The notes beneath the pieces were generated by a model. The model saw nothing but the letters and a program-made list of their open reading frames with translations, had not been told where the DNA came from and did not search any database. Positions 3,151 to 20,924 of a DNA stretch of 64,000 nt are shown here, one piece after another. The translations under genes and the position numbers were made by a program. Numbering within the stretch: the stretch's first letter is position 1; every line of letters starts with the position of its first letter. The stretch lies in assembly GCF_000716535.1 (NCBI RefSeq), contig NZ_JNWV01000020.1, positions 124,001 to 188,000 of the forward strand, written 5' to 3'. The stretch is from Streptomyces flaveolus. GTDB lineage: Bacteria > Actinomycetota > Actinomycetes > Streptomycetales > Streptomycetaceae.

Positions 3151-3390
3151 CGGGAGAGCATTTCGCACCGGAGCGTGCCGCCGTGCGGCGGGGTCGTGTG
3201 CTCGGGCAGGATTCCTGCACCGCTCCCGGGAACCGGCCTGCTCAGGCCCCGATCGACCAACTCACTGCCGCCGCATCTACCGCCGCCGACAGCAAACTGA
3301 GACGTCCGAACCGCAGCGGAGGAGCCGGAGAACGAGGTGGTCAACCGCGGCTTCCCCTGGGCCTGCCGCAGCGAGGGCCAGCCTGTGCAG
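2886..3390. repeat. Large direct repeat, copy A (about 500 bp)
   Basis: Diverged direct repeat of 12298 to 12798, same orientation, offset about 9.41 kb. Both carry the 5' half of a GNAT gene on the minus strand plus about 240 bp of upstream sequence. I estimate 85 to 90 percent identity by eye, with small indels in the upstream part. Copy A ends inside the gene. Confidence 0.9.
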
Positions 3391-3854: not shown

Positions 3855-4040
3855 CCCGGCGGCACCTCCGGGCCCCTGCTGACGATCGCCGGCACCGAGG
3901 TCGCCACCGCCCACTTCAGCCACGGGACCGTCGCACGTGCGGGCGAGCCGGAGGAGCTGTTCGAGGTGCCGGGCGCGAGCCATTTCGACGTGTACGACAA
4001 AGACCGGTGCCTCGCCCCCGTCCTCGCGAAACGACAGACC
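3855..4040 (+). pseudogene. Alpha/beta hydrolase C-terminal remnant
   Basis: In the plus frame the sequence reads GPLLTIAGTEVATAHFS and then ELFEVPGASHFDVYD. These are the conserved C-terminal strands of dienelactone-hydrolase-like alpha/beta hydrolases, with the catalytic His in GASHFD. There is no nucleophile elbow upstream, no start, and the frame runs on into unrelated sequence past about 4040. I read it as the tail of a lost gene. It lies 136 bp before the RNase J start, whose promoter may sit in or after it. Confidence 0.6.
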
Positions 4041-4176
4041 CTCGGCATCGGCGACGCACCCTCCCCGGCCAGCGGTCGACGAGCGCCGGTACGTCGTCGG
4101 CGCGGCGGGTCGTATCGAGCGCTCAGATCCCGCAGGCAATGGATCACCCGCCCCGCTCCCCGGGTACCGTCAGGGT

Positions 4177-5862: not shown

Positions 5863-5863
5863 G

Positions 5864-6145
5864 TTACAGCCCGGCAGCACTGTCCCGTCCCGGCCGCGGG
5901 GGCCGCCGGCGTCGAGGTCCGGCACGGGGCTCGCCAGCCACCCCCGTAGGCCGGGGTGGCAACGCCTGGTGCACGAGTAGGAGTCCCGTGCCGCCGGGCT
6001 CCGGTGGATGGGGCGGGCGGCGACCGGCCAAGGGATCGTTCAGCTGTCCGACATCGTGGACCGCGCGGACGATCCGGTCGCTCTCGGCCCCGATCCGCTG
6101 CGAGCCGGCGCCGTGGACGACGCTGTTGGTGGGCAGCTCCGCCAC
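5864..6145 (-). pseudogene. RsbA-like anti-sigma kinase, C-terminal fragment
   Basis: The minus-strand frame starts MAELPTNSVVHG, matching the N box (ELxTNSxxHG) of GHKL ATPases. It continues with DRIVRAVHDVGQLNDPLAGRRPP and GGTGLLLVHQ, the G1/G2 part typical of RsbA-type MEDS/HATPase regulators. The N-terminal MEDS domain is absent, because another gene lies directly upstream. The last 30 or so codons are Pro/Arg-rich and look frameshifted. It therefore seems a remnant of another regulator of the neighbouring sigma system. Confidence 0.6.
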
Positions 6146-6150
6146 CGCGC

Positions 6151-6555
6151 TCAGGAGTCGAGGCTGAGTTCGGCCCAGACCGTTTTGCCGGGGTGACCCG
6201 GGGTGACGCCCCAGCGTCGGGAGAGTCGGTCGAGGAGTTGCATGCCAAAACCGCCGGGCTCGGTGTTCGCAGTGGGGCGTTTACGGGGCCAGCGGTCGCT
6301 GGAATCGCTGACGGCTATGCGCAGCCACCGCCCGTTCCAGGTGAGCCGGATCAGGGGCGGGCCTGAGCCGTGGCGGATGGCATTGGTGATCAGTTCCGAG
6401 ACGAGCAGTTCGGCGGTCTGGATCATCCGGTGCTGCCGCAGCGGGCCGCCGAAACCGTCCACGCAGTCGCGGACCCAGTGCCGGGCGGCCGTGATGCTCG
6501 CCGTGACTGCGGGGAAGCGCGTCTCGCAGGATGGGATGGTCGATTCGCCGTTCAC
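6151..6555 (-). CDS. RsbW-like ATP-binding anti-sigma/regulatory protein (134 aa)
   Basis: Single-domain GHKL (HATPase_c_2) protein of the kind that binds a sigma factor or phosphorylates a STAS antagonist. Visible motifs are ETRFPAV, then the N box SELITNAIRHG, a degenerate G1 (VSDSSDRWP) and G2 (GGFGMQLLDRLSRRWGV). Length is normal. GGAGGATTCTC in front of the GTG at 6555 fixes the start; the open frame runs on upstream to 6933 without support. It lies beside an RsbA-like fragment and near STAS, PP2C and sigma genes, so a partner-switching role is likely, but its target cannot be read from sequence. Confidence 0.85.
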   Translation of the reverse strand: MNGESTIPSCETRFPAVTASITAARHWVRDCVDGFGGPLRQHRMIQTAELLVSELITNAIRHGSGPPLIRLTWNGRWLRIAVSDSSDRWPRKRPTANTEPGGFGMQLLDRLSRRWGVTPGHPGKTVWAELSLDS

Positions 6556-6903
6556 GAGAATCCTCCAGCGCGGGTGGCTCTGGGCCGCCGCCGACCGGTG
6601 CGCTGCGCAGCCGGTGGGAGCCATCTGTCGGGTTACCCGTGCCTGCCCGGTGAACCATCCGTGTCTGCCGGGTGACCGGCGGATCCCGTGAAAGTCATCC
6701 GCCGGGAGTTCGACAGTGGCGGTGCGTGCTGGGTGCGTGCGCTGCAGCCCCCTCGCCCGACGGCGAAGCACAGCTGTGAGCGGGATTCCGTGAGCACGGT
6801 GGGTGAGGCGGCGTACGGCGTCGGTGCAGGCCAGCGCATTGACGCCTTTTGCGAGCGCGGTGTCCTGTTCGCCGAGAGCAAGGTCCGAACCGGCACACAC
6901 ACA
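6556..6903. other. Gene-free stretch
   Basis: No frame with coding bias was found. It should contain the promoter of the ATP-binding protein on the minus strand. I see no clear promoter or repeat. Confidence 0.4.
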
Positions 6904-6933
6904 GTGAAGGCCCGGTGGACACCGGGCCTTCAC
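6904..6933 (-). terminator. Terminator downstream of initiator tRNA
   Basis: Perfect 13-bp inverted repeat gtgaaggcccggt/accgggccttcac with a 4-base loop. It begins 8 bases beyond the 3' end of the tRNA on the minus strand and is followed there by a TGTGTGTG tract. Confidence 0.85.
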
Positions 6934-6940
6934 GTTTGAG

Positions 6941-7014
6941 TAGCGGGGACAGGATTTGAACCTGCGACCTCTGGGTTATGAGCCCAGCGAGCTACCGAGC
7001 TGCTCCACCCCGCG
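6941..7014 (-). tRNA. Initiator tRNA-fMet (CAT)
   Basis: The 74-base minus-strand sequence folds as a full cloverleaf with anticodon CAT in the loop CTCATAA. It shows initiator hallmarks: three consecutive G:C pairs in the anticodon stem (GGG/CCC) and an unpaired first base (C1 opposite T72, before discriminator A73). The T arm reads GGTTCAAATCC. The CCA end is not encoded. A strong hairpin terminator follows. Confidence 0.95.
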
Positions 7015-7174
7015 TCGGTACGGTGAACTGTACGGCACCGATCGGAATCGGCCCAATCGACTTCGAGGGGGCCTCGGCTGTATGCCGCGTGCTCCCGCCG
7101 TACCGTCACTCGCAAGGACCTGCTGGCGCACGTATTGCAGTGGTTCGGCGAGGCTGCGGTAGCCGACCGCATTC

Positions 7175-7663
7175 CTAGGGTTTGCCGCGGGGGCCGGCCA
7201 GGCCGGGGACGTCAGCGAGGGCAATGCGGGCGGCGATGCGTTTGCCGACCGGCTCGCGCCGGGCTTCCACGCCCTGCGCGACGGCCATCACGATCTCCAG
7301 GCCGTGCTGCCCGACGCGGCCGGCCTCCGAGACCCGCGCCACCGGCAGCACCGGGTCGGAGTCCCACACGACGACCTCCACCACTTCGCCCATGATCCGC
7401 AGTTCCATCAGTACGGGTCCGGGCGCGTACTTGCGGGCGTTGGTGACCAGCTCGCTGACCACCAGCTGGGTGAGGTCCACGGCACGCTGCGAGACCGGTA
7501 CGCCTTGCCCGCTCCGGGCACTGACGAGAAAATCCGCGGCCAGATGGCGAGCCTGGGCGATGCAACTGTCGTCCCCCGCCAGCGCCACGGCGGTCTGCAG
7601 AACACGGGCCTCAGGCGCGGTGTCGTCCTCCCCCACCGGGCCTGGCCCCATCACAGCCGCCAT
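7175..7663 (-). CDS. RsbW-like ATP-binding protein (162 aa)
   Basis: Second GHKL-type ATP-binding regulator of the cluster. The N box is SELVTNARKYAPGP, G1 is VWDSDPVLP and G2 is GQHGLEIVMAVAQGVEARREP. The N-terminal 30 residues (acidic, starting MAAVMGPGP) form an extra segment before the domain. The start at 7663 has GGGGAAAGA directly upstream. It is divergent from a STAS gene 147 bp away, so the two probably share a regulatory region. By family knowledge it would be an anti-sigma factor or kinase of STAS proteins; which sigma factor it controls is inference. Confidence 0.88.
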   Translation of the reverse strand: MAAVMGPGPVGEDDTAPEARVLQTAVALAGDDSCIAQARHLAADFLVSARSGQGVPVSQRAVDLTQLVVSELVTNARKYAPGPVLMELRIMGEVVEVVVWDSDPVLPVARVSEAGRVGQHGLEIVMAVAQGVEARREPVGKRIAARIALADVPGLAGPRGKP

Positions 7664-7810
7664 TCTTTCCCCATGTGAACGCCCCGCACATACCCCCGCA
7701 GCCGAGGTTCACGCCTTGCCCGCCTTGTTGACTGTGCCACACAAAGACCCCGCCCGTACCATGCCGGACGGCACTGCGTACGACGGTGTGAATATGCCAG
7801 GATCACCTAT

Positions 7811-8188
7811 ATGGCTGAGGCAGAGATGACCGACAACGGACCCACCGAGCCGCCAGGCCGACTATCGGTCGTGTCCACGACCGTCGACGGCATCCGCGTA
7901 GTGACCCCGGCCGGAGAGCTCGACCACCACACCGGCGACACGCTCCGCCAGGCCCTGGACGCCTCCGACACCCCCCGCCCCCGCGTCGTGGTCGACCTGC
8001 ACCAGGTCACCTTCATGGACTCCAGCGGCATCAACATCCTCATCGCCGCTCACCGCGCCCTCAGCGAGGCCGACGGCTGGCTGCGCCTGGCCGCACCCCG
8101 CGAATCCGTGATGCGCACCCTGAACATCGTCGGCGTCGACACCCTCATCGACTGCCGGGAAACGCTCCACCAGGCCCTCAGCAACTGA
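7811..8188 (+). CDS. STAS-domain anti-anti-sigma factor (125 aa)
   Basis: Anti-sigma factor antagonist of the RsbV/SpoIIAA/BldG type. The core DGIRVVTPAGELDHHTG and the phospho-site segment FMDSSGINILIAAH are intact, so the serine for reversible phosphorylation by an RsbW-like kinase is present. A C-terminal segment MRTLNIVGVDTLIDCRETL completes the fold. The start at 7811 has CAGGATC upstream; an alternative ATG five codons in has GAGG before it. It is divergent from an RsbW-like gene and next to a PP2C phosphatase that would dephosphorylate it: a full partner-switching set. Confidence 0.92.
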   Translation: MAEAEMTDNGPTEPPGRLSVVSTTVDGIRVVTPAGELDHHTGDTLRQALDASDTPRPRVVVDLHQVTFMDSSGINILIAAHRALSEADGWLRLAAPRESVMRTLNIVGVDTLIDCRETLHQALSN

Positions 8189-8599
8189 CGCTTCGGAACC
8201 GGCCTCTCCATCGGCGGGAAGAAAGCGGCCCGCAGAGGTGGTGGGGGTGTGGCCGGCCTCGACGGCACGGCTGACGGAACCGCCTCCGGGACCGAGTCGC
8301 GGTCCCGCTGCCCGAGCGGCCGGAGTACCACCCGGACCAGTCACCAGGTCGCCACCGTCCCCGCCTCACCGGCCGGATCTGCAGGCCGCGGATGCGCGGC
8401 GCGCCCCTGCCGTCGGCGCCGCCCACGGCAGGACTCTCGTCAACCTCCCGGAAGGCGCGTGATCAGCCTCCCGGCGGCCCTGACGGAAGGCTGCGGTAGA
8501 GGGAGCCCCGCCCCTTGGGAGACGGAATCCCGCCGCCTCATCAGCCCACTCCGCCGCCGTGGGGGAGCGAACCGTAGTGCTTGACCGGCGGACTGGGCT
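8189..8599. other. Gene-free stretch between convergent genes
   Basis: About 410 bases lie between the STAS gene and the phosphatase gene, which converge here. I see no frame with a ribosome site and no clear hairpin. Confidence 0.4.
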
Positions 8600-9775
8600 C
8601 TACCCGTCTTCGCTTTGCGAACCATGCCAGTCCAAGATGAGGACGGTGGCGTCGTCCCTGAGGTTTCCCCGACAGGCGTCCAGCACCGCGGTGGTCAGGC
8701 TGCGCACGGTCTCCCTGGGGTGCGAGGCGCGGGTGTCCCAGATGAGGGATGCCAGGTCGACTGCTCCGGCGCCGCGTTCCTGCATGCCGTCGGTGAGCAG
8801 GACCAGACGGTCGCCGGGGAGGAGCTGGAGTTGCTGGACACGGTAGGAGGCGGGGGCCGCCACGCCGAAGGGGAGGTTGGCCGCGAGCTGGACCTCTTCG
8901 ACCTCGCTGGCGCCTTTGCGCAGGCGGAGCGGCCGGGGATGCCCGGCGTTGACCAGTTCGCAGGTCCCCGTCGCGAGGCTGATGCACAGCAGTTGACCGG
9001 TGGCCAGGCCACGGCTGTGGGTCAGCAAGGCGTCATGGGCACGTTGGGCCTGCTGGAGCGCGTCACAACCGCTGCGGCGGGCGCCGCGCAACGCGCCGAC
9101 CAGGAGCGTGGCGAGCAGCGCGGAGTGGGTGTCGTGACCCATGGCGTCGGTGATGGACAGGTGCAGTGTGTCGTGATCGAGCGTGAAGTCGTATGTGTCC
9201 CCGCCGATGTCGTCGGCCGGCACCAGCCCCGCGGCGAGGGTGAACTGGGGAGCCTCGCAGCAGGAGGCCGAGGGAAGCAGTTGGTGCTGGATCTCGGCGG
9301 CCAGGCTGGTCCGGGTGGTGCGCCGGCCCGCCTGATACAGGTCGGTGAAGCGGCGGTCGGTGACGATGATGTAGGCCAGTGCGTGCGCCGCGTCCTCGAT
9401 CTGGGCGAGCACGGTGTCGTCGGCGTTCTGCAGCGTCGCCTCCAGCAGACCGATGCAGTCGCCGCGGTTGGTCACCGGCGAGATCACACGCCGCCCGCCC
9501 AGGCCGTCCGGTTCCACGTGCTGGCGCTGGCTGCGCAGGACGGCGTCGTAGACGCTGCCCTCCAGGTCGATCCGCTCGGCAGCGCCCCCGTCGTCGTCGG
9601 CCTGTGTGATCAGGCGCAGCAGCCGATGGCCCACGAGGTCGACGAACAGGAAGGACACGTGCTCCGCCCCGAAACGCTTGCGCAAGTCGTTCGCAACCAC
9701 CTCGACGGACTCCCCCGGCGGTGCCGCCTCCGCGGCGGCCAGAAGCTGCCCCAGTTCCAGATCCCCGCCACCCAT
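8600..9775 (-). CDS. GAF-PP2C (SpoIIE/RsbU-type) serine phosphatase (391 aa)
   Basis: Protein serine phosphatase that would dephosphorylate STAS antagonists and so release a sigma factor. Residues 20 to 150 look like a GAF sensor. The link TSLAAEIQHQLLPS leads into a PP2C domain with GGDTYDF, DAMGHDTHSALLATLL, VNAGHPRPLRL, LLTDGMQERG and the final RDDATVLILDW, so the metal-binding Asp residues are present. TAGGAGGTTGCC precedes the ATG at 9775. It follows the sigma gene in the same direction, but a hairpin and 355 bp separate them. Confidence 0.93.
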   Translation of the reverse strand: MGGGDLELGQLLAAAEAAPPGESVEVVANDLRKRFGAEHVSFLFVDLVGHRLLRLITQADDDGGAAERIDLEGSVYDAVLRSQRQHVEPDGLGGRRVISPVTNRGDCIGLLEATLQNADDTVLAQIEDAAHALAYIIVTDRRFTDLYQAGRRTTRTSLAAEIQHQLLPSASCCEAPQFTLAAGLVPADDIGGDTYDFTLDHDTLHLSITDAMGHDTHSALLATLLVGALRGARRSGCDALQQAQRAHDALLTHSRGLATGQLLCISLATGTCELVNAGHPRPLRLRKGASEVEEVQLAANLPFGVAAPASYRVQQLQLLPGDRLVLLTDGMQERGAGAVDLASLIWDTRASHPRETVRSLTTAVLDACRGNLRDDATVLILDWHGSQSEDG

Positions 9776-10079
9776 GGCAACCTCCTATCCGTTGCCGCTC
9801 CTTCTTCCCCGGGTTCGCCCGTCTTCACCCAGTACACGCATCGCGCCTGCTCGCGGGTGTCTCTGGCGTCGGGATCTGGTTGCCTCTCGGAGCGCAGCGG
9901 GGTGATCAGGCGGTGTTCGTCGAGAGGGGCGACGGGACGAGAACCGGCAGGGTTCCGCGGGGGCCGCCTGGGCAGGTGGGGCTGCGGGGATCTCGACGTC
10001 ATCGCCTGTCGCCCGGCTGTTCCGGACGCCTCGCCACCCTGGCCGCAGGGCCGTGGCGACTGATGAAGCCGACGCCGAT
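9776..10079. other. Promoter region of the phosphatase gene
   Basis: Gene-free stretch upstream of the phosphatase. It should contain its promoter on the minus strand; no consensus box stands out. Confidence 0.35.
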
Positions 10080-10107
10080 GATGCCCGCCACGGCTGCGGC
10101 GGGCATC
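10080..10107 (-). terminator. Hairpin after sigma factor gene
   Basis: Perfect 10-bp stem gatgcccgcc/ggcgggcatc with an 8-base loop, 24 bases beyond the sigma factor stop codon on the minus strand. No clear T-run follows, as is usual in Streptomyces. Confidence 0.6.
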
Positions 10108-10130
10108 AGCGGAGCGCGGACAGCCGACTG

Positions 10131-10970
10131 TCAGCCGGTAGTGAGCAGGCCCTCGCGCAGGCGGGCGAGGCAGCGGGACAGGAGTCGGGAAACGTGCATC
10201 TGGGAGACGCCGAGGCGTTCGCCGATCTGGGCCTGGGTGAGTTCCTCCACGAACCGCATGTGGATGATCTGCCGGTCCCGCTCGTCCAGGTCGGCGATCA
10301 GCGGGGCCAGGGAGTGGAAGTCCTCCACCAGCTCCAACGCGGCGTCCTCTACGCCGATGAAGTCCTGTAGGACGCTCTCGCCGTCCTCGCTGCCGCCGAT
10401 CGCGGCGTCCAGGGAGGAGGAGTTGTAGCCGTTGGAAGCCAGGCGGGCCTCGCGGACCTCGTCCTCGGACAGGCTCATCAGCTCGGACAGTTCCTTGACC
10501 GTCGGCGCGCGACCCAGCCGGCTACGCAGTTCCTCGGTGGCCCGGGCGAGCTGGACGCGGGCCTCCTGCAGCCGCCGGGGTACGTGCACGGCCCAGGTGG
10601 TGTCCCGGAAGAACCGCTTGATCTCCCCGACGACGTAAGGGATGGCGAAGGAGGTGAACTCCACCTCGCGGGAGAGCTCGAACCGGTCGATCGCCTTGAT
10701 CAGGCCGATCATCCCGACCTGGACGATGTCCTCCATCTCCTCCGGCCCGCGGCTGCGGAAGCGGCCGGCCGCGTAGCGGACCAGGGACATGTTCATCTCG
10801 ATCAGCGTGTTACGGGCGTAGCTGTATTCGGGCGTGCCCTCCTCCAGCACCGCAAGCTGCTCGAAGAACAAGCGGGAGAGTTCGCGGGCGTCCTTGGGCG
10901 CCACGCGGGACGCGTCGGCGACTTCGGGCAGCTCGGTGATCTGCGTGTCCAACCTGCTCATGAGCGGCAT
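10131..10970 (-). CDS. SigB/SigF-type RNA polymerase sigma factor (279 aa)
   Basis: Group 3 sigma-70 factor for stress or developmental genes. Region 2 is clear (MSLVRYAAGRFRSR, EEMEDIVQVGMIGLIKAIDR, EFTSFAIPYVVGEIKRFFRD), with the SigF-family link WAVHVPRRLQE. Region 3 (RAPTVKELSELM) and region 4 (LTQAQIGERLGVSQMHVSRLLSR) follow. GGGAGGGGACCTAC before the ATG at 10970 sets the start; a second ATG three codons in is less favoured. Neighbouring RsbW-like, STAS and PP2C genes argue for control by partner switching rather than by transcription alone. Confidence 0.96.
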   Translation of the reverse strand: MPLMSRLDTQITELPEVADASRVAPKDARELSRLFFEQLAVLEEGTPEYSYARNTLIEMNMSLVRYAAGRFRSRGPEEMEDIVQVGMIGLIKAIDRFELSREVEFTSFAIPYVVGEIKRFFRDTTWAVHVPRRLQEARVQLARATEELRSRLGRAPTVKELSELMSLSEDEVREARLASNGYNSSSLDAAIGGSEDGESVLQDFIGVEDAALELVEDFHSLAPLIADLDERDRQIIHMRFVEELTQAQIGERLGVSQMHVSRLLSRCLARLREGLLTTG

Positions 10971-11482
10971 GTAGGTCCCCTCCCGATTCGAACTCGTTCC
11001 ACGGCCCGCCGTGAAACGGCCGACAACGCCCCGGCTACCCCCTCACCCTCCACCCATGCCTGCCATCCCAGGGTCAATGGGCAGGCGTGAGCTCGGACGT
11101 CTCCCCTCCGGGAGGCCACAGACCCGACTGACCGGAGTGTCCGGCCGGTGTTCCGGTGTCGGCCCGTCTGCCGTCGCGCCGCGCGTGGAGCATCGGTTGC
11201 GACCGGAAACGGGCCAGCGCCGCGTCGGCACAGACCCGTAAGCGGGCTACGGCTGCGGCGGCGCCGCGGATCGGACCCCGCACGAGGGCATCCCGGCGCG
11301 GCCCACCACCAGCTAGTACTGCAACGGTATTCGCCGTGACTTGTGGCCAGGTCAGGGGCTACGGACCGGCCCACCGGCCAGGTCATCTGCCGCTACGAAC
11401 GCGCCCGCCCCGGCACACGTGTCGTGTCCCGAGCGAGCACGCCAACTGCTGCCCGGGGCAACGCGGCCTCGGGCACTCGACT
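10971..11482. other. Gene-free region upstream of sigma factor
   Basis: About 510 bases contain the sigma gene promoter on the minus strand and the 3' flank of the HNH gene. The short string agtactgcaacggtattcgc near 11313 reminds me of flanks of actinomycete insertion sequences, but no transposase sequence is present. Confidence 0.35.
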
Positions 11483-12067
11483 TCAGTCCCGGCCCTTGCC
11501 GCGCAGCGCTTGGTGACACCGCAGGGCCACCACGCGGAGCCGCTCCCTCAGCTCATCGTGGTCTGCGCCACGTGTCTTGTTGGCGTGGCAATCGGGGCAG
11601 AGGGCAACCATCGCGCTCGGGTAGTCGCGCCCACCTGCCGCGTGGTCGTCGACGTGATCGACTTCGAGGAGCGGTTCCCCGGTCGTCGTGCGATACGGCA
11701 GGTCTGGCAGAAGACACTCCGGGCTCTCACAGCGGCCTTCGCTGCGCCTGAGAACCGCCCGTCTCGCGGCGTCGTCCCGGTCTCGGCGCCCTGTCGTCGT
11801 CGCACGGCGGACCTCGTGCCTGCCCGCTGCCTCACGCTCCCACAGGGCCTCGCATGCGGCGTTGTAGGCAGCCTCATCCGAGACGACCCGCACACGCATC
11901 CGCCGAAGTGCGTACGGCACTGGTTCAAGCCAGGCGAGCCGGACATCATCTCCAGTGACAGATGCCGCTCCGCGCGATTGAGCTGGCGGAACTCCTGGCC
12001 ACTCAGTCGTCCTGCACAGGGCACTGACATTGTCCCCGGGCTGCACACACGGAGCGCGCGGCGTCAC
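11483..12067 (-). CDS. HNH endonuclease-family protein (up to 194 aa)
   Basis: The C-terminal half is a clear HNH nuclease with a Cys4 zinc site: C-x4-C in GRCESPECLLP, the catalytic LEVDHVDDHAAGGRDYP, then ALCPDCHANKTRG. The N-terminal 55 or so codons have weak codon bias and no recognisable domain, and no ribosome site supports any start, so the gene may be 5'-truncated. The ATG in RRMRVRVVS (about 11899) is a possible inner start. It begins 6 bases after the GNAT stop on the same strand. Role unknown; a nuclease tied to mobile or defence DNA is possible. Confidence 0.7.
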   Translation of the reverse strand: MTPRAPCVQPGDNVSALCRTTEWPGVPPAQSRGAASVTGDDVRLAWLEPVPYALRRMRVRVVSDEAAYNAACEALWEREAAGRHEVRRATTTGRRDRDDAARRAVLRRSEGRCESPECLLPDLPYRTTTGEPLLEVDHVDDHAAGGRDYPSAMVALCPDCHANKTRGADHDELRERLRVVALRCHQALRGKGRD

Positions 12068-12073
12068 ACCGCG

Positions 12074-12562
12074 TCATTCCGGAGAAACGCGAAACTCGAA
12101 TTCGGGGCGGTCCCACGGCACGGCGGGCGGGTTCGCGAGCGCGGTCCCGATCCGTACTGCGCCAACGCGGTGGTAGAAGTCCTCGGCGGGAAGATGCGAC
12201 ACGACCTTGACACGGTCGAGCCCGGCGGCACGGGCCTCGGACTGCATGTGTGCGACGAGCAGCCGTCCGATACCCCGTCCTTGCGCTTCGTCGGCGACGA
12301 ACAGCAGGTCGAGCTCCGGTGGGGAGAGGACGAGTGAGTAGAAGCCGAGGACCCGGCCGCCATGCTCGTCGGCGCCGACGGCCACGAAGGCGCGGTGGGC
12401 CTCGATGTAATCAGGCCCGACCCGGTAGCCCGCGACTGCGGCCGCGTACTTGCCCGCGTAGGCGCCTGAGCCACGCACGAGCCGCGTGAGCCGTTTGGCA
12501 TCCCGCGCGGCGGCCCTCCGTATCGTGATCGGCTGGCTGATCGGGGAAGTGCGTGAACTCAT
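12074..12562 (-). CDS. GNAT family N-acetyltransferase (162 aa)
   Basis: Acetyl-CoA-dependent acetyltransferase; substrate unknown. The GNAT fold is complete: N-terminal TIRRAAARDAKRLTRLVR, central FVAVGADEHGGRVLGFYSL, the LDLLFVADEAQGRGIGRLLV strand-loop that binds acetyl-CoA, and a C-terminal FYHRVGAVRIG. The start MSSRTSPIS at 12562 is chosen by alignment with the broken copy. A GTG 18 bases upstream is also open and neither has a good ribosome site, so a leaderless message is possible. This is the intact version of the gene truncated near 2.9 kb, and it is followed closely by the HNH gene. Confidence 0.88.
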   Translation of the reverse strand: MSSRTSPISQPITIRRAAARDAKRLTRLVRGSGAYAGKYAAAVAGYRVGPDYIEAHRAFVAVGADEHGGRVLGFYSLVLSPPELDLLFVADEAQGRGIGRLLVAHMQSEARAAGLDRVKVVSHLPAEDFYHRVGAVRIGTALANPPAVPWDRPEFEFRVSPE

Positions 12563-12798
12563 CGGGAGAGTATTTCGCACCGGGGCGTGCCGTCATGCGG
12601 CGGGTCGGCTGCTCGGGCAGGATTCCAGCGCCACTTCCGGGAACCGGCCTGCCCAGGCCCCGATCGACCAACTCGCGGCCGCCGCGTCGGCCGCCTGCCG
12701 ACAGCAGCTGAGACGCCCCAAACGCTGCGGAGGAGCCGGAGGACGGGGTCGTCAACCGCTGCTTCTCCTGGGTCTGCATCAGCGAGGCCCGGCCTGTG
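12298..12798. repeat. Large direct repeat, copy B (about 500 bp)
   Basis: Partner of 2886 to 3390. It covers the 5' part of the intact GNAT gene and about 240 bp of its upstream region. The gene-free bases 12563 to 12899 hold the rest of this repeat and the downstream flank of the immunity gene; I see no other gene there. Confidence 0.9.
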
Positions 12799-12899
12799 CG
12801 CGCGGGACCTCGGTATCAAGACCGTGGACACCGCAGCCGGTCGCTACAACCTGTGCCGGGTCGTGCCCAGTGAGGGACCTATCCACGCGTCAGACCGTC

Positions 12900-13352
12900 T
12901 CACGTATCGCGGACGCCCCTGTCGCGGGGGCTTGCGGGAAGGCTCTCTCCGACGAAGCGGGCAAGCTGGTCTGCGGCACCGCGTGGCAGGTCGGCGACCG
13001 CGGTCTCCGGCAATGTCGTGATGACGGTCCGCAGGCGCGCTCCGAGCTCTGGCAGCACGGTCCAGGCCGATGCGGGGGCTTCGACGGTGGCGAGCAGCAG
13101 GTCGCCCTCGTAGAAACGGGCGTCGAGCAGCGGCTCCTCGATCAGCAAGCGCACGGCGAGTGGAAGAACGTAGGGCAGTGCCACCTGCTGCGCGATGAGG
13201 GTGCGCAGATCCGCGGGGCCGAGTTCGCCCAGGGGCACGCTCCGCAGCCCATGGACTCGGCGCACCAAATGGGTCGCGTCAGCGTCAGGAGGCGTCCAGC
13301 GGGGTGGGTCCAGCTCGTCGAGCGTGCGGTCGAGGTGCAACAGAGGGTCCAT
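12900..13352 (-). CDS. CdiI-like contact-dependent inhibition immunity protein (150 aa)
   Basis: The N-terminus MDPLLHLDRTLDELDPPRW, with ATHLVRRVHGLRSVPLGEL and DLRTLIAQQVALPYVLPLAV, matches the immunity family annotated as contact-dependent growth inhibition immunity (CdiI_2 type) that is common in actinomycetes. It is alpha-helical, cytoplasmic, without signal or membrane segment. The start at 13352 has GAGG within the upstream codons; an ATG three codons earlier is possible. No polymorphic toxin or CdiA-like gene lies next to it, so it is an orphan. The family assignment is from remembered pattern, and its protective function is inferred only. Confidence 0.75.
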   Translation of the reverse strand: MDPLLHLDRTLDELDPPRWTPPDADATHLVRRVHGLRSVPLGELGPADLRTLIAQQVALPYVLPLAVRLLIEEPLLDARFYEGDLLLATVEAPASAWTVLPELGARLRTVITTLPETAVADLPRGAADQLARFVGESLPASPRDRGVRDT

Positions 13353-13366
13353 GAGCCTCATTCTCG

Positions 13367-13648
13367 TCAGGCCGCTGTGCACAGGTCGGCACGCCCCAGG
13401 ACTTGGTGCGACTCGTGGGTGGCGGCACCCAGGTGGTGCGAGCGCGGTCCGGCGCCGCCGGTGAAGGCGACGCTCTGGACGATCTGCCTGCCGTACATCC
13501 AGGCCGCGTACAGCTCGTGCTCATCACCCTCGATGGTCTCCGAGCAGCCGAAGCCGAGGGACTTTTGGTGGGCGTGGGCCGCCGGGACATCGGGAGTGCG
13601 GATGTTGCAGTGGTCCAGGTGGGCGACCTCCGCGCCGGGGCGCAGGTC
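13367..13648 (-). pseudogene. Extradiol ring-cleavage dioxygenase fragment (VOC fold)
   Basis: The minus frame reads VAHLDHCNIRTPDVPAAH, DEHELYAAWMYGRQIV, VAFTGGAGPRSHHLGAATH and ESHQVLGRADL. This is the metal-binding core of class I extradiol dioxygenases such as homoprotocatechuate 2,3-dioxygenase; the HLDH histidine and the HHLG region are kept. Upstream the frame is Pro/Gly-rich noise, and downstream it stops before the third metal ligand. Only about 85 of roughly 330 residues remain, so this is a gene fragment. Confidence 0.7.
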
Positions 13649-13686
13649 ACAGCGCCGGCTGAGGCGACCGGAGCCGCCGGATCTGG

Positions 13687-13735
13687 GCAGGGGCGTGGGG
13701 GTCGGGGTTTGCTGCCCCGGCCCCCACGCCCCTGC
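13687..13735 (-). terminator. Strong hairpin terminator
   Basis: About 21-bp stem (gcaggggcgtggggg and tcgggg pairing with gccccgg and cccccacgcccctgc, one T-G wobble) around a 6-base loop. It starts 2 bases beyond the stop of the small gene on the minus strand. Confidence 0.8.
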
Positions 13736-13737
13736 CG

Positions 13738-13947
13738 TCACCGCCTCCGGCGGCGGCCCCGCCGGGGCCTGTGCACGGCCGCGAGGGCCAGCGCCCGCTC
13801 GCGCGGGGTGCAGCCCCGGGTCATCCACAGGACCGCGCCGTAGCTGACGATGTCGCGGGCAAGGCGCAGCCCCTGGTTGACGCCCGTCCACGGGGCCACG
13901 GTCTCCGCCAGGTCCGCCGCCTGGTCGAGCAGTTCATCGAGAAACAT
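13738..13947 (-). CDS. Small hypothetical protein (69 aa)
   Basis: Unrecognised small protein. It starts MFLDELLDQAADLAETVAPW, has a mildly hydrophobic middle (LARDIVSYGAVLWM) and ends in an extremely basic tail (RPRRGRRRRR) that could bind nucleic acid or anchor at the membrane. A good site (GAGGAG, 7 bases before ATG) and a strong terminator right after the stop support a real gene. It is divergent from the large NTPase gene, 140 bp away, so the two may share a control region. A functional link is speculation. Confidence 0.6.
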   Translation of the reverse strand: MFLDELLDQAADLAETVAPWTGVNQGLRLARDIVSYGAVLWMTRGCTPRERALALAAVHRPRRGRRRRR

Positions 13948-14087
13948 GGGTCACTCCTCATCATGTCGGTCGTCGGTCGCCGGCTGCTTCCGACATGAAC
14001 GAGGCTGCTCTCAGGGGAAGTTGTACAGAACGCCGGCGAATACGGGCGACCGCCCACGCAATCGGCGTACGCTTCCGGACTGCTCGG

Positions 14088-17000
14088 ATGACAGCGAGTA
14101 GTCGTTTTTCAAAGGCTCCGGGGGTTGAAGAATTGGCCCGTGAAGAACAGCGGTGGCATCCCGCGGGTCCAGGCCGGCAGATCTCGTGGCCGCAGGACAC
14201 CGACGGCTGGGGCGAGGACCGGCTCTGGATCCTGAACGCGCTCAAGCACTGGATGTGGGGCGTGGCGCACGGCTACGAAGGACGCCGGATGCTCGCTGGC
14301 GACCTGCGCCCGGTGTTCGGCGTGAAGTCCGCCGGGACCGTCTCGTCGTGGATCGCCCAGGGCGGCGTCCGCGGCGACGAGGGCCTGAAGTACTGCGAGA
14401 CGGTCCGGGAACGCGCCGGTTGCACAGCCTCGTGCGAGAGCGGCTACGGAGACCTCGCGGAACTGCGGAAGCGGTACGCGCGAGCCCGCCACCACAGCGA
14501 GGAGCAGAAGAGGGCGGCACGGCAGCGCTCCCGCCGGCGAACCGTCGTACCCGCCCCCCTCAAGCTCACCCCACGGGAGATCGACCGCCGGCTGTCGGTC
14601 CTGGCAGAGGCGCGGGAGGGCGCTCTGCGGTCCCTGGAGACGGTCACCGTCAACCAGTTCGGGCCGGCCGGCGACCGTGTGACGCTCGCTCAGGTCCGTG
14701 TCGAACGGACCGCCGAGCGGCAGATGCTGAAGCACATCGAGCGTCAGTTGAACGGAGCCGCGGCCGGACAGGCCGCCGCTCTCGTCGGGGAGCCCGGCGT
14801 CGGCAAGAGCTGCTCCCTGTGGGGGGTGCACCGAACTCTGTCCCGGCGCGAGGACATCTGCCTGGTCCTGCTCTCCGCAACCTCCCTGCTCGCCGGCCCC
14901 GGCGGTCCCGCCGACCTGCGGCCCCACGAACTGCCCGCGCTGCTGCACGAACACCGCGGACGGACCTCGGGCGTCAGGCGCCCCCTCGTCCTGCTGCTGG
15001 ACACCGCCGACCTCCTGCTGCATCAGCCGGAGACCGCGAACGACTTCGTCGAACTCATCACCGATCTGCGCTCCGCGGGCACCGCGGTCGCCCTGGCCTG
15101 CCGGAGAGGCGAAGCCGGTCTGCTCAAGCAGAGCTGGGACACCGCCCGCGGACCCGGCGCGTACGCCTCGCTGCTCTCCGACATCCTCCTCGACCTGTAC
15201 GACACCGGCACGGACGACGACCGTCGCGGCGGATGGGCCCCGGGATCCGAACTGGCCCGGGCCGTCGACGCCTACGCCAAGGCGTACGCGCCGCGGCGCA
15301 CCGAGGGCTCCCTGCCGCAGATGCGGCGGGCCCTGGCGGACGCCTCCGCACGCGGGCTGCCGCTCGGCGAGCTGATCCGCCACCCGCTGCATCTGCGCAT
15401 GGTGTTCGACCTCTACGCCCCCGAAGGGCCGAGCGGGTCGGACCTCGATGTCGCCGGCCTCTTCCACGACTTCTGGGTCAGGCGCGTCGACCGCGACATG
15501 CGGCACTCGACGCCGGCGCCCGGCACCGAGCCCGGGGAACAGACCATGCCCCTCGGTCCGGTCGCCGCCGAGATCGGCCTGGTCACCTTGCGCGAGGGCA
15601 CCATCGAGCTGCGGCAGGAGGCCGTCCGCGATCTCGTCGCCTCCCGCCTCGGCCTGTCCGGGCAGGAGGCAGCCCACTCCATCGGAGTACTGCGGCGCCG
15701 GGGAGTGCTCAGCGAACCCTTCGCCGGCCGGCTGCGCTTCCACCACCAGGCGATCGGCGAGTACGCCGCCGGGCGCGGTCTCGCCGACTCCCCCGCGGGA
15801 CTCGACGCGGCCGTACGACGGATCGCCGAGCATCCCCAGGACCTCTATCTCGCCGAAGCCGCCCGGCACGCCTTCCACCACAGCGACCGGACACGCGCAC
15901 ACCGGGCGACGCACTGGTATCCCCTGCTGGCGCCGCTCGCCCGGGCCTCGTCGCCGGTGGCCCGGGAGACGTTCCTGCGCATCCTCGCCGGACTCGGCCA
16001 CGCTCCCGCCACCGCCCTGGAGCACGCCGGCCCGCTCGTCGAAGACGCCGACGACGGCCGGCTCCTCGCCGCGCACTACCTGGCCCGTCTGAAGGCCACC
16101 GGCCGGCCCGCCGAGCACATCTGGCCGACGATGCTGAAGAGGATCTGGGCCGTGGCCGACGGCCCCCAGCGCCGCGAGGTCCTGCGCATCCTGACCGTCC
16201 TGCTCCGGCAGCAACGCGCCACCGCCGCGGCCTTCCTGCACGGCCTGCCCGCCCAGGACCTGCCCCGGTGCACCCCCGCCCCCCAGCTGACCACCCTGAT
16301 GCGCCATCTCCACGAGGCCGGCGAGGCGGTCCCCGACGGCTCCCGCCGTGCCACCGCCGCCTCTCCGAAGCACCCCGTGGCCGCCATGATCGAAGCGATG
16401 CTCGACGACGGTTTCGTGCGGCTCGGCGCGCCTCTTGAGCACGCCCTTGCCACGCTCGCCGAACTCGGCGCCACCTGGCCCGACCGGTACGGCGATCTGT
16501 GCCGCGGCGTACCGGCCCGCGTCGCCGCCATTCCCGGGAAGGTCCCCAAGGACGTCGACAAGATCATCGCCCTGGCCGCGGCCTGCTGGGCCGCCGTACA
16601 GGTCCATGAAGGCACCGCCGACACCTTGCGGGCCCTGCGCGCCTGTCTGAGCGAACTCGCCGACGGAGCCCTGCCCGTCGCCCCCCACCCGGTCGTCCTG
16701 CACGGTGTGGCGAAGACCCTGTGCGATCCCGGCGTGCGGATCGCACCGCCGGCGCTGCGCGAGGCACTGGCGCTCGCCGCCGCGTCCGCACCCGCCGGCG
16801 ACACCCGCAAGGTCATCGCCCGTTACTTCCTGCGCCCGCTGCTCATGGCCGGCGAGGCGCCGGCAGGGCGGGCGGCACGGGAGTGGTGCCGTGCGCAGAC
16901 GTCGCACGAGCGGGTAGGGCAGGTCCCCCAGCCGCCCGCCACGACCCTGGTTCTGACCGCCCTGGCACAGCGGATGCCCGCCGCCGTGGTCGCCGCGTCA

Positions 17001-18437
17001 CTGCCCGACGACCGCAGATCGGCGAAGCCGCGGGCGACGACGCTCCTGCCGTGGACCACGGCTCCCTGGGACCCGGAGCTGACCGTCGCCGCCGCGGCCG
17101 GCGGCCATCACCTCGCCACCCACGCCCTCGACCGCCTCACCGGTGTCACCCCCGGTCCGGAGGCGGCCCGGGAGGTGTCCGAGAAGGAGCGGGAGAGCGA
17201 GGAGGGCCACACCGAGGACCGCGTCGGCGATGACAGGGCCCCGGAGACGGGCACGGAGACGAGCACAGAGAAGAACACGGAGCGGGGCACCGGGAAGCGC
17301 CGGAGCAGGGGGCGGCAGGCGCGCAAGCGGCTGCCGTCACCACGCGAAGAGGTCGTCGTACGCGTCCCCGAGGCCCCGGACCTCCTGCTCCCCTGGCTCC
17401 TCGAGGACGCGCGGCTCCGCTCCAGCAGCGACGCCCTCATCGCCTTCGTCCATGCCCACGAGGCACGACAACTGCCCGCCGAGCACACCCGGCAGCTCTC
17501 CCTCATCGCCTCTCACCTGCGGGAACAGAGGAAGGATCCCCTGGCCTGGGCGGCGGCACACCGGCTGACCGCCCGCATGATCAGCCGGGGTCTCACACCG
17601 CTCGGCACCCCCGCCGACGTGGCGGAGCAACTCGACGCGTTGCGCACGAGCGCCGGCGCGCAGACCGCACTGCTGGAGGCGGCGACGCAGGCCATCACCG
17701 CCGACCCCGCTCAGTGGGATCTCTCCGCCGCGCGGACCACCCTGACCCCCGTCCTCGCGGAACTCGTCGCACGTGCCTCGGAGATCGCCGCCACCGTCAC
17801 CCGGCCGCAGAAAGGGCACGACGCCTACATGCTGGCCGGAAACGCCGCCCATCTGCTGAGAGTCCGTCTCGCCGTGCTCGACGCACGCCGGAGACTCGCC
17901 GACGGCAGTCGTGACATCGGGCTGGAGGTCCTCCGCTCCCTCGTCTTCGTGCCAGGGAACCCGTGCGTACCGCGCGGTCATCGCCTCGCGGAGCCGGCCA
18001 ACGTGTGGCCGCACCGGTTCCAGACCATGCCCCGGCTGTGCATCGACCTTCACGAGGCCGGACGTCCCCAGGACGCCGAAGAGCTACTGGGGTCGGCGGT
18101 GGAGGTCGTGACCGCGGGCTCCGGTCCTCACGCCCGCTGGCGACAGTTCGCGTGGAACCCGTGGCGCCCCTACCTGCGTGTCCTCGTCGGCGAGCGTTCC
18201 AACCTCTACGACCTGCTCATCGACTACGGCACCCGCGACCACCAGCTCGGCCGCCACTTGCTGGAAGTCGCCGGACAGGCCCTGAGCAACATCTCGGAGG
18301 AACTGCACCGGCTGCTCACCGATCCGCGGTGGCCCGCCGGACTGCGCGACGCCGCCCGCCGGACCGCGTCGTGGGCCGGTCGGGACGGCGCCAACCTGCG
18401 GTGGGAGACGGTCTACGACGAGATCGAGAAGCGGTGA
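14088..18437 (+). CDS. STAND/NLR-like NTPase, large (about 1449 aa)
   Basis: Large multidomain protein of unknown function. A P-loop GEPGVGKS (residues about 234 to 241) and a Walker B segment RPLVLLLDTADLLL (Asp about 305) mark a STAND/NACHT-like NTPase. RFHHQAIGEYAAGRGL near residue 551 is the FxHQxxxEYxAA signature that ends the winged-helix part of NLR-like proteins. The N-terminus has a possible helix-turn-helix (FGVKSAGTVSSWIAQGG) and a basic stretch. The C-terminal 850 residues are Ala/Leu-rich helical repeats, split by an acidic/basic disordered linker (DNA 17160 to 17345). The start is uncertain: 13995 is also open, without a ribosome site or codon bias. No partner gene is obvious. 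A sensor for phage or stress signals is inference from the family. Confidence 0.85.
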   Translation: MTASSRFSKAPGVEELAREEQRWHPAGPGRQISWPQDTDGWGEDRLWILNALKHWMWGVAHGYEGRRMLAGDLRPVFGVKSAGTVSSWIAQGGVRGDEGLKYCETVRERAGCTASCESGYGDLAELRKRYARARHHSEEQKRAARQRSRRRTVVPAPLKLTPREIDRRLSVLAEAREGALRSLETVTVNQFGPAGDRVTLAQVRVERTAERQMLKHIERQLNGAAAGQAAALVGEPGVGKSCSLWGVHRTLSRREDICLVLLSATSLLAGPGGPADLRPHELPALLHEHRGRTSGVRRPLVLLLDTADLLLHQPETANDFVELITDLRSAGTAVALACRRGEAGLLKQSWDTARGPGAYASLLSDILLDLYDTGTDDDRRGGWAPGSELARAVDAYAKAYAPRRTEGSLPQMRRALADASARGLPLGELIRHPLHLRMVFDLYAPEGPSGSDLDVAGLFHDFWVRRVDRDMRHSTPAPGTEPGEQTMPLGPVAAEIGLVTLREGTIELRQEAVRDLVASRLGLSGQEAAHSIGVLRRRGVLSEPFAGRLRFHHQAIGEYAAGRGLADSPAGLDAAVRRIAEHPQDLYLAEAARHAFHHSDRTRAHRATHWYPLLAPLARASSPVARETFLRILAGLGHAPATALEHAGPLVEDADDGRLLAAHYLARLKATGRPAEHIWPTMLKRIWAVADGPQRREVLRILTVLLRQQRATAAAFLHGLPAQDLPRCTPAPQLTTLMRHLHEAGEAVPDGSRRATAASPKHPVAAMIEAMLDDGFVRLGAPLEHALATLAELGATWPDRYGDLCRGVPARVAAIPGKVPKDVDKIIALAAACWAAVQVHEGTADTLRALRACLSELADGALPVAPHPVVLHGVAKTLCDPGVRIAPPALREALALAAASAPAGDTRKVIARYFLRPLLMAGEAPAGRAAREWCRAQTSHERVGQVPQPPATTLVLTALAQRMPAAVVAASLPDDRRSAKPRATTLLPWTTAPWDPELTVAAAAGGHHLATHALDRLTGVTPGPEAAREVSEKERESEEGHTEDRVGDDRAPETGTETSTEKNTERGTGKRRSRGRQARKRLPSPREEVVVRVPEAPDLLLPWLLEDARLRSSSDALIAFVHAHEARQLPAEHTRQLSLIASHLREQRKDPLAWAAAHRLTARMISRGLTPLGTPADVAEQLDALRTSAGAQTALLEAATQAITADPAQWDLSAARTTLTPVLAELVARASEIAATVTRPQKGHDAYMLAGNAAHLLRVRLAVLDARRRLADGSRDIGLEVLRSLVFVPGNPCVPRGHRLAEPANVWPHRFQTMPRLCIDLHEAGRPQDAEELLGSAVEVVTAGSGPHARWRQFAWNPWRPYLRVLVGERSNLYDLLIDYGTRDHQLGRHLLEVAGQALSNISEELHRLLTDPRWPAGLRDAARRTASWAGRDGANLRWETVYDEIEKR

Positions 18438-18507: not shown

Positions 18508-18579
18508 GTTCGATTGTGAGGGGCGCGAAATCCGGCCCCTCCCGCGGATCGACCCACGCTCACACACGAGGAAGAAGCC

Positions 18580-18876
18580 ATGACGGATCAGACGAACTCC
18601 GGCTCCTCCTGCTGCGGCTCCTGCGGCACCGGCGCGGCGACCGACGTCCAGGTCCACGGCGTCGGCGTCACGACCACGTACAAGGTCTCCGGTATGACCT
18701 GCGGTCACTGCGAGACCGCCGTCTCGAAGGAGATATCCGCCCTGGACGGCGTCACCGCGGTCACGGCCGTCGCCGAGACCGGCGAGGTCAAGGTCACGTC
18801 CACGGCCCCGCTCGACCAGGAGGCCGTCCGCGCCGCCGTGGACGAGGCCGGTTACGAGCTCGTCGGCCGGGACTGA
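18580..18876 (+). CDS. copZ: CopZ-like copper chaperone, HMA domain (98 aa)
   Basis: Cytoplasmic Cu(I) chaperone that hands copper to the export ATPase. The heavy-metal-associated domain reads [15 protein letters not shown], with the CxxC ligand pair intact, and ends [11 protein letters not shown]. The N-terminal 30 residues carry an additional Cys cluster ([10 protein letters not shown]) that could bind another copper ion; it is unusual compared with plain 68-residue CopZ. GAGGAAG precedes the ATG at 18580. It is the first gene after the CsoR-type operator and forms an operon with the ATPase gene 110 bp downstream. Confidence 0.93.
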
Positions 18877-18986
18877 CGGCTCCCGCGGGGTTCCGACCCG
18901 GTGCGCCGCTCATTCGCTCCCGCGTCGGGACGTACCGCTCCGCTGATACGGACGCCGTACGCCCCGGCCTACACCAGGAGATTCGC

Positions 18987-20870
18987 ATGACCAGCACGGC
19001 TCCCGAGAAGACGCTCAGCAGTCCGACGCCCTCGCCCCCCTCCGAGGTGGAGCTCTCCATCGGCGGTATGACGTGCGCCTCGTGCGCCGCCCGGGTGGAG
19101 AAGAAGCTCAACCGGATGGACGGCGTCACGGCGACCGTGAACTTCGCCACCGAGAAGGCCAAGGTCACCTACGGCCCGGACGTCGAGGTCGCCGACCTCA
19201 TCGCGACCGTCGTGAAGACCGGCTACACCGCCGAGGAGCCTCCTCCTCCGGCGGTCGCGAAGACGCTGGGCGCCGCCGAGACCCCCGCCGCGCCGGACGG
19301 TGAACTTCTCTCCCTGCGCCAGCGCCTGTTCGTGTCGCTGGCACTGTCCGTGCCCGTCGTCCTGATGGCGATGGTCCCGGCCCTGCAGTTCGACAACTGG
19401 CAGTGGCTCTCGCTCACCCTCGCCTCCCCTGTCGTGGTCTGGGGCGCCTTCCCCTTCCACAAGGCGGCCTTCACCAACGCCCGACACGGTGCCGCCACCA
19501 TGGACACGCTCGTATCCATCGGCACACTCGCGACCCTCGGCTGGTCCTTGTGGGCGCTGTTCTTCGGGCACGCCGGTATGCCGGGCATGCGGCACGGTTT
19601 CGAGTTCACGGTCTCCCGCACGGACGGCTCCTCCTCCATCTACCTGGAGGCCGCGGCCGGAGTGACCGCCTTCATCCTGGCCGGCCGCTACCTGGAGGCG
19701 AAGTCCAAGCGCAAGGCGGGCGCGGCCCTGCGGGCCCTGATCGAGCTGGGCGCGAAGGACGTCTCCGTGCTGCGCGGCGGCAAGGAGGTCCGCGTCCCCG
19801 TCGCACAGCTGGCGGTCGGCGACCGGTTCGTCGTCCGGCCCGGCGAGAAGATCGCCACCGACGGCACGGTGGTCGAGGGCTCCTCCGCGGTGGACGCCTC
19901 CATGCTCACCGGTGAGTCCGTCCCGGTGGACGTGACCGTCGGTGACGCGGTCACCGGCGCCACCGTCAACGCGGGCGGCCGGCTGGTCGTCGAGGCGACC
20001 CGCGTCGGCGCCGACACCCAGCTCGCCCGGATGGCCAGGCTCGTCGAGGACGCGCAGAACGGCAAGGCGGCCGTGCAGCGCCTCGCCGACCGGATCTCCG
20101 CCGTCTTCGTGCCGGTGGTGATCCTGATCGCCCTCGGCACGCTGGCGACGTGGCTCCTCGTCACCGGCGACGCCACCGCCGCGTTCACGGCCGCCGTCGC
20201 CGTCCTGATCATCGCCTGCCCGTGCGCGCTGGGCCTGGCCACCCCGACCGCGCTGATGGTCGGCACCGGGCGCGGCGCCCAGCTCGGCGCGGTCGCGGTC
20301 GCCTGGGACGGGCAGGCGCGCGGTGTGCTCACCGTGGCCGACGCCGTCAAGGAGACGAGCGCTGAGGCCGTCGCCGAACTCCGTCGGCTGGGGCTCACGC
20401 CCGTACTGCTGACCGGCGACAACACGCGCGTCGCGGAGTCGGTCGCGCGCTCCGTCGGCATCGAGGAGGTGATCGCGGAGGTCCTGCCCCAGGACAAGGT
20501 CGACGTGGTCAGGCGGCTCCAGTCCGAGGGACGCACGGTCGCGATGGTCGGGGACGGGGTCAACGACGCGGCCGCCCTCGCCACCGCCGATCTCGGCCTC
20601 GCCATGGGCACCGGCACCGACGCGGCGATCGAGGCCGGCGACCTCACGCTGGTACGCGGTGACCTGCGGGTGGCGGCCGACGCCATCCGCCTGTCCCGCA
20701 GGACGCTCGCCACCATCAAGGGCAACCTCTTCTGGGCCTTCGGCTACAACGTCGCCGCCCTGCCCCTGGCCGCGTTCGGCATGCTCAACCCGATGATCGC
20801 GGGAGCGGCGATGGCCTTCTCGTCGGTCTTCGTCGTCACCAACAGCCTCCGGCTGCGCGCCTTCACGTAG
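18987..20870 (+). CDS. copA: CopA-type P1B copper ATPase lacking its phosphorylation segment (627 aa)
   Basis: Cu(I)-exporting P-type ATPase by family. An N-terminal HMA domain ([14 protein letters not shown]), membrane helices, the actuator motif MLTGESVPV (near residue 307), the transmembrane CPC ([15 protein letters not shown], near 410), GDGVND and the final helices are present. Directly after [10 protein letters not shown] (near 434) the frame jumps to [20 protein letters not shown]. The DKTGT aspartyl-phosphate motif and the nucleotide-binding SEHP region, roughly 110 to 125 residues, are gone without a frameshift. As written the pump cannot form its phospho-intermediate. AGGAGA precedes the ATG. 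Either a true in-frame deletion or an assembly error. Confidence 0.88.
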
Positions 20871-20895
20871 CCGCCGGCCCGACGAGATGCGCACG

Positions 20896-20924
20896 AGGCG
20901 CCCGGTCCGGACGACCGGGCGCCT
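20896..20924 (+). terminator. Terminator after copA
   Basis: Perfect 12-bp stem aggcgcccggtc/gaccgggcgcct with a 5-base loop, 25 bases after the ATPase stop. Confidence 0.85.

Follow-up and report, generated by a model that had tools for sequence, protein, structure and literature searches.

In Streptomyces, the gene for the small protein AfsS lies downstream of afsR, in tandem with it. AfsR itself is a STAND protein whose NOD and TPR domains, as outlined in PMC10936776, inhibit its DNA-binding head; ATP binding relieves the inhibition, and afsS is a target through a box in its promoter. By analogy, the action of AfsR on afsS is the nearest worked-out example for the pair of genes considered here, which lies in a 64,000-nucleotide stretch of the 10.35-Mb genome of Streptomyces flaveolus (contig NZ_JNWV01000020.1, positions 124,001 to 188,000; the window). 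One gene encodes a large STAND/NLR-type protein (14088..18437, plus strand) and the other, divergent from it, a 69-residue basic protein (P0019; 13738..13947, minus strand). A STAND NTPase, an N-terminal DNA-binding domain (putative in the window), a helical-repeat C-terminus and a regulator gene as direct target are the points of likeness with AfsR and AfsS (PMC10936776), although activation of the target is only proposed for the window pair. AfsR differs in its SARP head and in being widespread, whereas the window pair is rare, apparently mobile and has its small gene in divergent orientation.

Other described systems resemble this pair in part. The characterised Avs proteins act via fused N-terminal effectors, according to PMC10907252; Avs4 is the first Foldseek match of the window NLR, though unrelated AAA+ proteins score about as high, and no Avs profile matches it. 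Conflict NLRs of the nSTAND5 and NACHT types have swappable N-termini, as does the window's family, whose core relatives P0013-P0017 reach nSTAND_NTPase5 below the cut-off. Helix-turn-helix (HTH) domains are listed among conflict-system effector modules, and a transcriptional response has been proposed for some TRADD-N proteins (Kaur et al. 2020, 2021; PMC7159879, PMC8195603), whereas a paired divergent small gene is not described in the available portions of these papers. In HET-S/NWD2, a fungal NLR and a separate effector are encoded adjacently, with amyloid templating proposed as the link (PMC3321046). Among the papers listed by literature searches none describes this NLR/small-gene pair, with the limit that the small gene is nameless and search terms could not name it. 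The new point is this partner, a small divergent gene that accompanies the NLR.

An NLR gene and its divergent small partner

The small gene lies beside the NLR gene, in divergent orientation, in all nine distinct loci seen to encode an HTH-type NLR with an intact N-terminus. Six of these (the window and L009, L010, L011, L012 and L013) were reached via the NLR, and a profile built from seven small-protein members, run on all reading frames of the fetched loci, places the small gene divergently upstream in each (6/6); the other three (L037, L038 and L057) were reached via the small gene. At L014, where the NLR is without its 5' part, there is no small gene. In the reverse direction, small-protein searches covered overlapping samples of 199, 392 and 394 genomes, and all six strong matches adjoin an NLR: G000, G184 (L013), G388 (L037), G394 (L038), G607 (L012) and G614 (L057). 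The pair carries consecutive locus tags in two further genomes (ACH4M4_32120/32125 and AB0E83_18880/18885). Among weak matches, G135 (L039) and G173 (L034) have no NLR within the fetched regions; G454 is a further one. The first-pass annotation had left the choice between a single-gene and a two-gene system. The two genes appear to travel together, and because the 69-residue gene accompanies the NLR in these nine loci the two-gene option is favoured.

Judged by its sequence, the 69-residue neighbour is a conserved gene. Its ATG is preceded at 6 nt by a Shine-Dalgarno-like GAGGAG, and its product, which has no Pfam match, belongs to a family of 34 clusters (the query included) whose named organisms are all Streptomyces or Kitasatospora. 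The window and L009 copies differ at 10, 5 and 19 sites in codon positions 1, 2 and 3, with 14 codons synonymous and 14 not. Between the two HTH-type subfamilies, the window's and a sister subfamily (L010-L013, L037 and L038), the small proteins are 42-49% identical; W41, R44, G45, P48, E50, R51 and A52 are among the invariant residues. Nine small proteins for which properties were computed, three of them from branch B (below), are amphipathic with isoelectric points of 9.9-12.0 and no clear membrane-spanning segment (mean hydropathy over 19 residues at most 1.62). In the window's family the C-terminal tail is rich in arginine.

Pairwise blastn at E 1e-10 among nine loci, L014 included, finds DNA similarity essentially limited to the pair, from about the stop of the small gene to the stop of the NLR gene. 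Over the whole pair L009 matches the window at 73% (9665-14382), L010 matches L037 at 83% and L011 matches L037 at 94%, the last similarity extending ~135 bp beyond the small gene. The flanks have nothing in common across the nine loci at this threshold, bar one 359-bp match of 70%. Comparison at the sequence level shows the NLR and its small basic neighbour to be encoded by one conserved divergent cassette in differing surroundings.

In L057 the pair is enclosed by two direct 1492-bp copies, 99.7% identical, of an element that encodes an IS4-type transposase (one copy scanned), a composite-transposon-like setting (3080-11984 of the reverse complement), and a phage-type integrase gene lies near L011. 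A full-length NLR match was found in one of 21 genomes, the window's own, and an NTPase-core relative at E <= 0.001 in 10 of 150 Streptomyces genomes, again counting the source genome. Such sporadic occurrence rules out the core gene that the first-pass annotation had named as the finding that would speak against it. The pair appears to move between Streptomyces genomes as a mobile two-gene unit. Between the direct repeats of L057 there is also a gene of GNAT-like appearance, as judged by eye.

A second NLR branch, branch B (L035, L078, L079 and L080, the last three being Streptomyces plasmid records), has a different helical N-terminus. All four of its loci have a divergent upstream ORF (open reading frame) for a small basic protein of 61-100 residues, which the three plasmid records list as a gene. 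A profile of the branch B small protein, run on 295 genomes, gave strong matches just in G009 and G045, the source genomes of L035 and L078; G103 matches weakly, and its own NLR lies ~1 Mb away by coordinates.

Architecture of the NLR and its exchangeable head

The window NLR has the architecture of a large bacterial STAND/NLR-type protein, akin to the immune sensors of plants and animals, with a DNA-binding-like head replacing the killer enzyme. Its gene encodes 1449 residues when read from ATG 14088. TTG 14133 is the likelier start, because relatives P0006, P0007, P0009, P0010 and P0011 are annotated as starting there in the alignment; it sits 8 nt after GGGGG. ATG 13995 is merely the first in-frame ATG and is an unlikely start, since homology begins further in. 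Codon-position G+C over 13995-18437 is of coding type (0.76/0.54/0.87), whereas an antisense ORF of 932 residues (14109-16907, minus strand) is a frame mirror that fails the codon-position filter.

As the first-pass annotation had read from the letters, a P-loop, a Walker B and a winged-helix signature follow one another along the plus strand. The P-loop NTPase (14709..15296, residues 208-403) holds the Walker A sequence GEPGVGKS (14787-14810, residues 234-241) and the Walker B sequence LVLLLDTAD (14985-15011, residues 300-308); G234, P236, G237, G239, K240, S241 and LLLDTAD (302-308) are invariant in 12 aligned sequences including the window's. In the winged-helix region (15555..15785, residues 490-566) the model has the helix and strand order of a winged helix, and FHHQAIGEYAAG (15738-15773, residues 551-562), which we take to be the F-H-x-x-x-E-x-A-A type motif of the STAND/NLR winged helix, is invariant at most positions across the same 12 sequences. 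Residues 570-1448 (15795..18431) form an all-helical solenoid, a putative sensor, interrupted by a disordered charged linker (17148-17327, residues 1021-1080). The helical C-terminus and its linker had likewise been proposed, and the predicted structure of residues 638-1449 (812 residues) is all-helical (pLDDT 80.5, pTM 0.67). Foldseek searches with this solenoid return HEAT-type importins first, at E 1.2e-4 and with low TM-scores.

AlphaFold2 models residues 1-664 with moderate confidence (mean pLDDT 71.7, pTM 0.50) as a helical N-terminal domain, the NTPase and the winged helix. A Foldseek search of the Protein Data Bank (PDB) with this model places Avs4, an antiviral STAND protein, first (E 8.6e-6); CED-4 and a wheat resistosome are in the same list, yet TnsC, ORC, NSF and ClpC score alike. 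The N-terminal domain (14214..14417, residues 43-110) has HTH spacing in the model (helices 43-57, 70-77, 82-90 and 96-110; ten-residue pLDDT means of 57-86 across 41-110), which agrees with the earlier suggestion of an HTH-like part in place of a nuclease, TIR or protease effector. Its pattern, of the LAxWxGVSxxTVxxW type, is one that we take to be typical of DNA binding, and HTH_23 is found below threshold in the N-termini of two of eight members (best E 0.023). Conserved Cys112 and Cys116 come right after the domain, followed by a long helix (123-149).

Profile searches against the STAND/NACHT and antiphage families, the check that the first-pass annotation had in mind, did little to place the protein. 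Pfam gives nothing above its cut-off (AAA_22 at E 0.007), NCBIfam gives no match, and neither NACHT (PF05729) nor nSTAND_NTPase5 (PF25199) matches the window NLR. PADLOC gives it a weak match to the candidate family PDC-M54A alone (E 4e-4 and 0.011), and gives none for P0002 at E 0.01.

Comparison with relatives shows that the HTH-like domain occupies the position held elsewhere in the family by effector enzymes. There P0016 has an HNH-type N-terminus matching CBASS SAVED-HNH endonuclease effectors (E 9.5e-21), L072 a purine phosphorylase domain (E 8e-31; L076 is alike by eye) and L081 a trypsin-like peptidase by annotation, from likeness to which L073 is also called trypsin type. The N-terminus of P0014 is TCAD9-like (E 3.2e-9; 36.9 bits, below the cut-off of 40), and that of L021 weakly LmuA-like (E 8e-4). 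A SEFIR domain is present in L077 (E 5.5e-10), but this domain carries little weight because the kinship of L077 is in doubt (E 9.3e-4, 19.4 bits; no phmmer match). The core tree, from which L077 and L021 were left out since their P-loop pattern is unmatched, groups the window with L009-L013, L037, L038, L057 and P0013 (clade support 1.0; placement of P0013, 0.25). The TCAD9 protein P0014 nests within this HTH clade, with L010-L013, L037 and L038 (support 0.95), and HNH types occur in two places; the N-terminal slot has therefore been exchanged even within a clade.

Seven enzyme-type relatives (L015, L021, L072, L073, L076, L077 and L081) have no clear small divergent coding-like ORF, as judged by eye and from codon-position G+C. 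L077 has an ambiguous 76-residue divergent ORF overlapping the start of its NLR, and antisense ORFs in L073 and L081 are longer but non-coding in appearance. Such a small divergent gene is likewise absent from L070, L036, L071 and L018, which have other N-termini. L071, a Streptomyces locus of the wider NLR family with an XRE-type HTH (HTH_31, E 1.5e-4, below the cut-off), adjoins a type I restriction gene (PADLOC REase_I, E 2.6e-23), and a serine/threonine kinase-like gene is seen by eye in its neighbourhood.

Three NLRs from Rhodococcus and Rhodococcoides (L016, L017 and L019) have an HTH-like C-terminus instead, and a same-strand gene for 421-429 residues lies directly upstream in all three. 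The product of this gene in L016, the sole one tested, is TetR-like (E 2e-8), and the L016 NLR passes the NACHT cut-off (26.9 against 26.7). It is possible that these loci are a further transcription-coupled branch. Their C-terminal domain compares with the window's N-terminus at an hhalign probability of 9.7 (P 0.003), which is suggestive at most.

The shared intergenic region and the neighbouring genes

The intergenic region shared by the two genes spans 13948..14132, its part from 14088 being possibly coding if ATG 14088 is the start. Four blocks are conserved with L009 and L057: AGTTGTACAGAACG (14019-14032, one base differing), GCGTACGCT (14065-14073), GGATGAC (14086-14092) and GTTTTTCA (14104-14111). 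A 9-bp inverted repeat at 13961-13998, equalled in 6 of 200 shuffles, is present in the window but in neither L009 nor L057. In the sister subfamily, the intergenic DNA holds the inverted repeat GGCCGGTCG-G-CGACCGGCC, with perfect 9-bp arms in four of the six loci (equalled in 0-2 of 200 plain shuffles), two of which, L011 and L037, are close kin at 94% identity. Its arms shorten to 7 bp in L038 (40/200 shuffles), and it is imperfect in L012 (149/200).

The neighbours listed by the first-pass annotation are all present. Beyond the small gene lies CdiI_3 (12900-13382, minus strand; Pfam E 3e-24), which resembles an immunity gene of contact-dependent inhibition. It appears as an orphan, no toxin gene having been noticed alongside, although no search for one was made. 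Downstream of the NLR is a copper P-type ATPase gene (18516-20870, plus strand) with an internal piece missing relative to its relatives. A blastn alignment of 18600-20900 breaks at query base 1689 (~20288 in the window), where the relative has ~400 bp more, and the phosphorylation loop seems to be missing; contig C35 of the source genome holds a similar region. We rejected this gene as an operon partner on account of its identity as a copper gene and its internal gap, and because similarity in other loci ends at the stop of the NLR.

What the pair may do

We tentatively favour, at a little under an even chance, a mobile two-gene STAND/NLR module in which the small gene carries the output and is probably switched via the HTH-like domain at the shared promoter. 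In the absence of a trigger, which might be a protein of a phage or from another foreign source, the solenoid would hold the NLR inactive. Once a trigger is bound, the NTPase would exchange nucleotide and the NLR would open or oligomerise, whereupon the HTH-like domain would act on the shared divergent promoter and raise expression of the small gene. The small amphipathic, arginine-rich protein would be the working arm: it might be a toxin, an effector of abortive infection or a regulator acting further downstream. The most likely setting is defence, whether against phages or against mobile elements of another kind, and an antiphage role is plausible by analogy, argued from the effectors of the relatives, the mobility and the fold. 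We regard as possible, though rather doubtful, a bolder version in which an NLR immune receptor has a transcriptional killing arm: the HTH would switch on a divergent small cationic effector, the two would move as a two-gene cassette, and more than one branch would have replaced a fused enzyme in this way.

Several observations weigh against a module of this kind. The HTH call, which draws on a pattern in the sequence, on a model of moderate confidence and on Pfam matches below threshold, is weakly supported by sequence; the window NLR's own N-terminus has no Pfam HTH match, and a sequence search of the PDB returned no solved relative of it. The sister-subfamily palindrome is not significant in the window (25 of 500 shuffles reach it) or in L009 (170 of 500), and L057 is the sole member of the window's subfamily to match it (score 12.3; 0 of 500 plain shuffles). 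For some small-protein clusters the contigs are more numerous or longer than for any listed NLR cluster. P0019-like small proteins occur on 14 contigs, the longest of 9.78 Mb, against 3 for P0001-like NLRs, the longest of 0.35 Mb; clusters P0023, P0049 and P0052 name long contigs absent from every listed NLR cluster. Small genes without an intact NLR may therefore exist, their NLRs being decayed or missing. The N-terminus and small protein of branch B have no detectable homology to those of the window. Defence islands, for which the first-pass annotation had advised a check, were absent from the flanks tested (10 neighbour proteins at 7 loci, chosen by eye); the one clear match, to type I restriction, came from L071, which does not carry this module, and L011 and L009 each gave a weak one. 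No viral contig was found to carry a relative of either the small protein or alignment A2, the pattern matches, 172 and 74 in number, having all gone unconfirmed, and plasmids gave no small protein. Five weak NLR relatives are on plasmids; the four inspected (H1, H2, H4 and H5) are three of branch B and one of trypsin type, the HTH type being absent among these.

An operator common to both subfamilies was considered and rejected. L057 alone supports it, and in the 64-kb window about 20 sites, counted as 40 strand-hits, score above 8, the best reaching 16.2.

Coupling at the protein level is the alternative that survives best, and we hold it to be conceivable but on the unlikely side. The small protein would be an inhibitor, guard or adaptor of the NLR, or an effector that its N-terminal domain recruits, as has been proposed for HET-S and NWD2, and the HTH-like fold would serve protein interaction or autoregulation. 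Tight linkage suits any partner role, HET-S/NWD2 is an adjacent NLR/effector pair (PMC3321046), and the weak sequence support for the HTH is in keeping with a different use of the fold. The small proteins, basic, amphipathic and with no clear transmembrane stretch, could bind nucleic acid, membrane or protein. Promoter regulation is nevertheless what the divergent layout, the conserved intergenic blocks and the inverted repeat of the sister subfamily suggest, and the HTH pattern is presumably that of a DNA-binding domain.

It is unlikely that the NLR is an AfsR-like physiological regulator of development or secondary metabolism, acting with a small regulatory protein and having no defence role. 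Patchy occurrence, sharp cassette limits and the composite-transposon-like setting are unlike a housekeeping regulator, Pfam finds no SARP head (Trans_reg_C plus BTAD) in the window NLR, and relatives carry conflict-system effector domains. The precedents are nonetheless close, since Streptomyces AfsR is a STAND protein that activates the AfsS gene and MalT and GutR are further STAND activators (PMC10936776), and the flank proteins tested at HTH-type loci include no clear defence genes. A selfish toxin-antitoxin-like cassette, in which the small protein is a toxin restrained by the NLR and kept for its own maintenance, is highly improbable: a mobile two-gene unit with a small basic protein would fit it, but an antitoxin in the form of a 1449-residue NLR, large conserved sensor included, is a costly one, and the hints of small genes without a listed NLR would be hard to square with an unchecked toxin.

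Known HTH-STAND proteins such as AfsR, MalT and GutR are physiological regulators (PMC10936776), and the characterised antiviral STANDs use fused effectors (PMC10907252). The window's family seems to join, within a single mobile cassette, traits of the defence-type STAND and of the HTH-STAND regulator; its likely output is a small protein of no Pfam family. A two-gene cassette is easy to clone and may make it possible to ask whether transcription could be the way in which an NLR counters infection.

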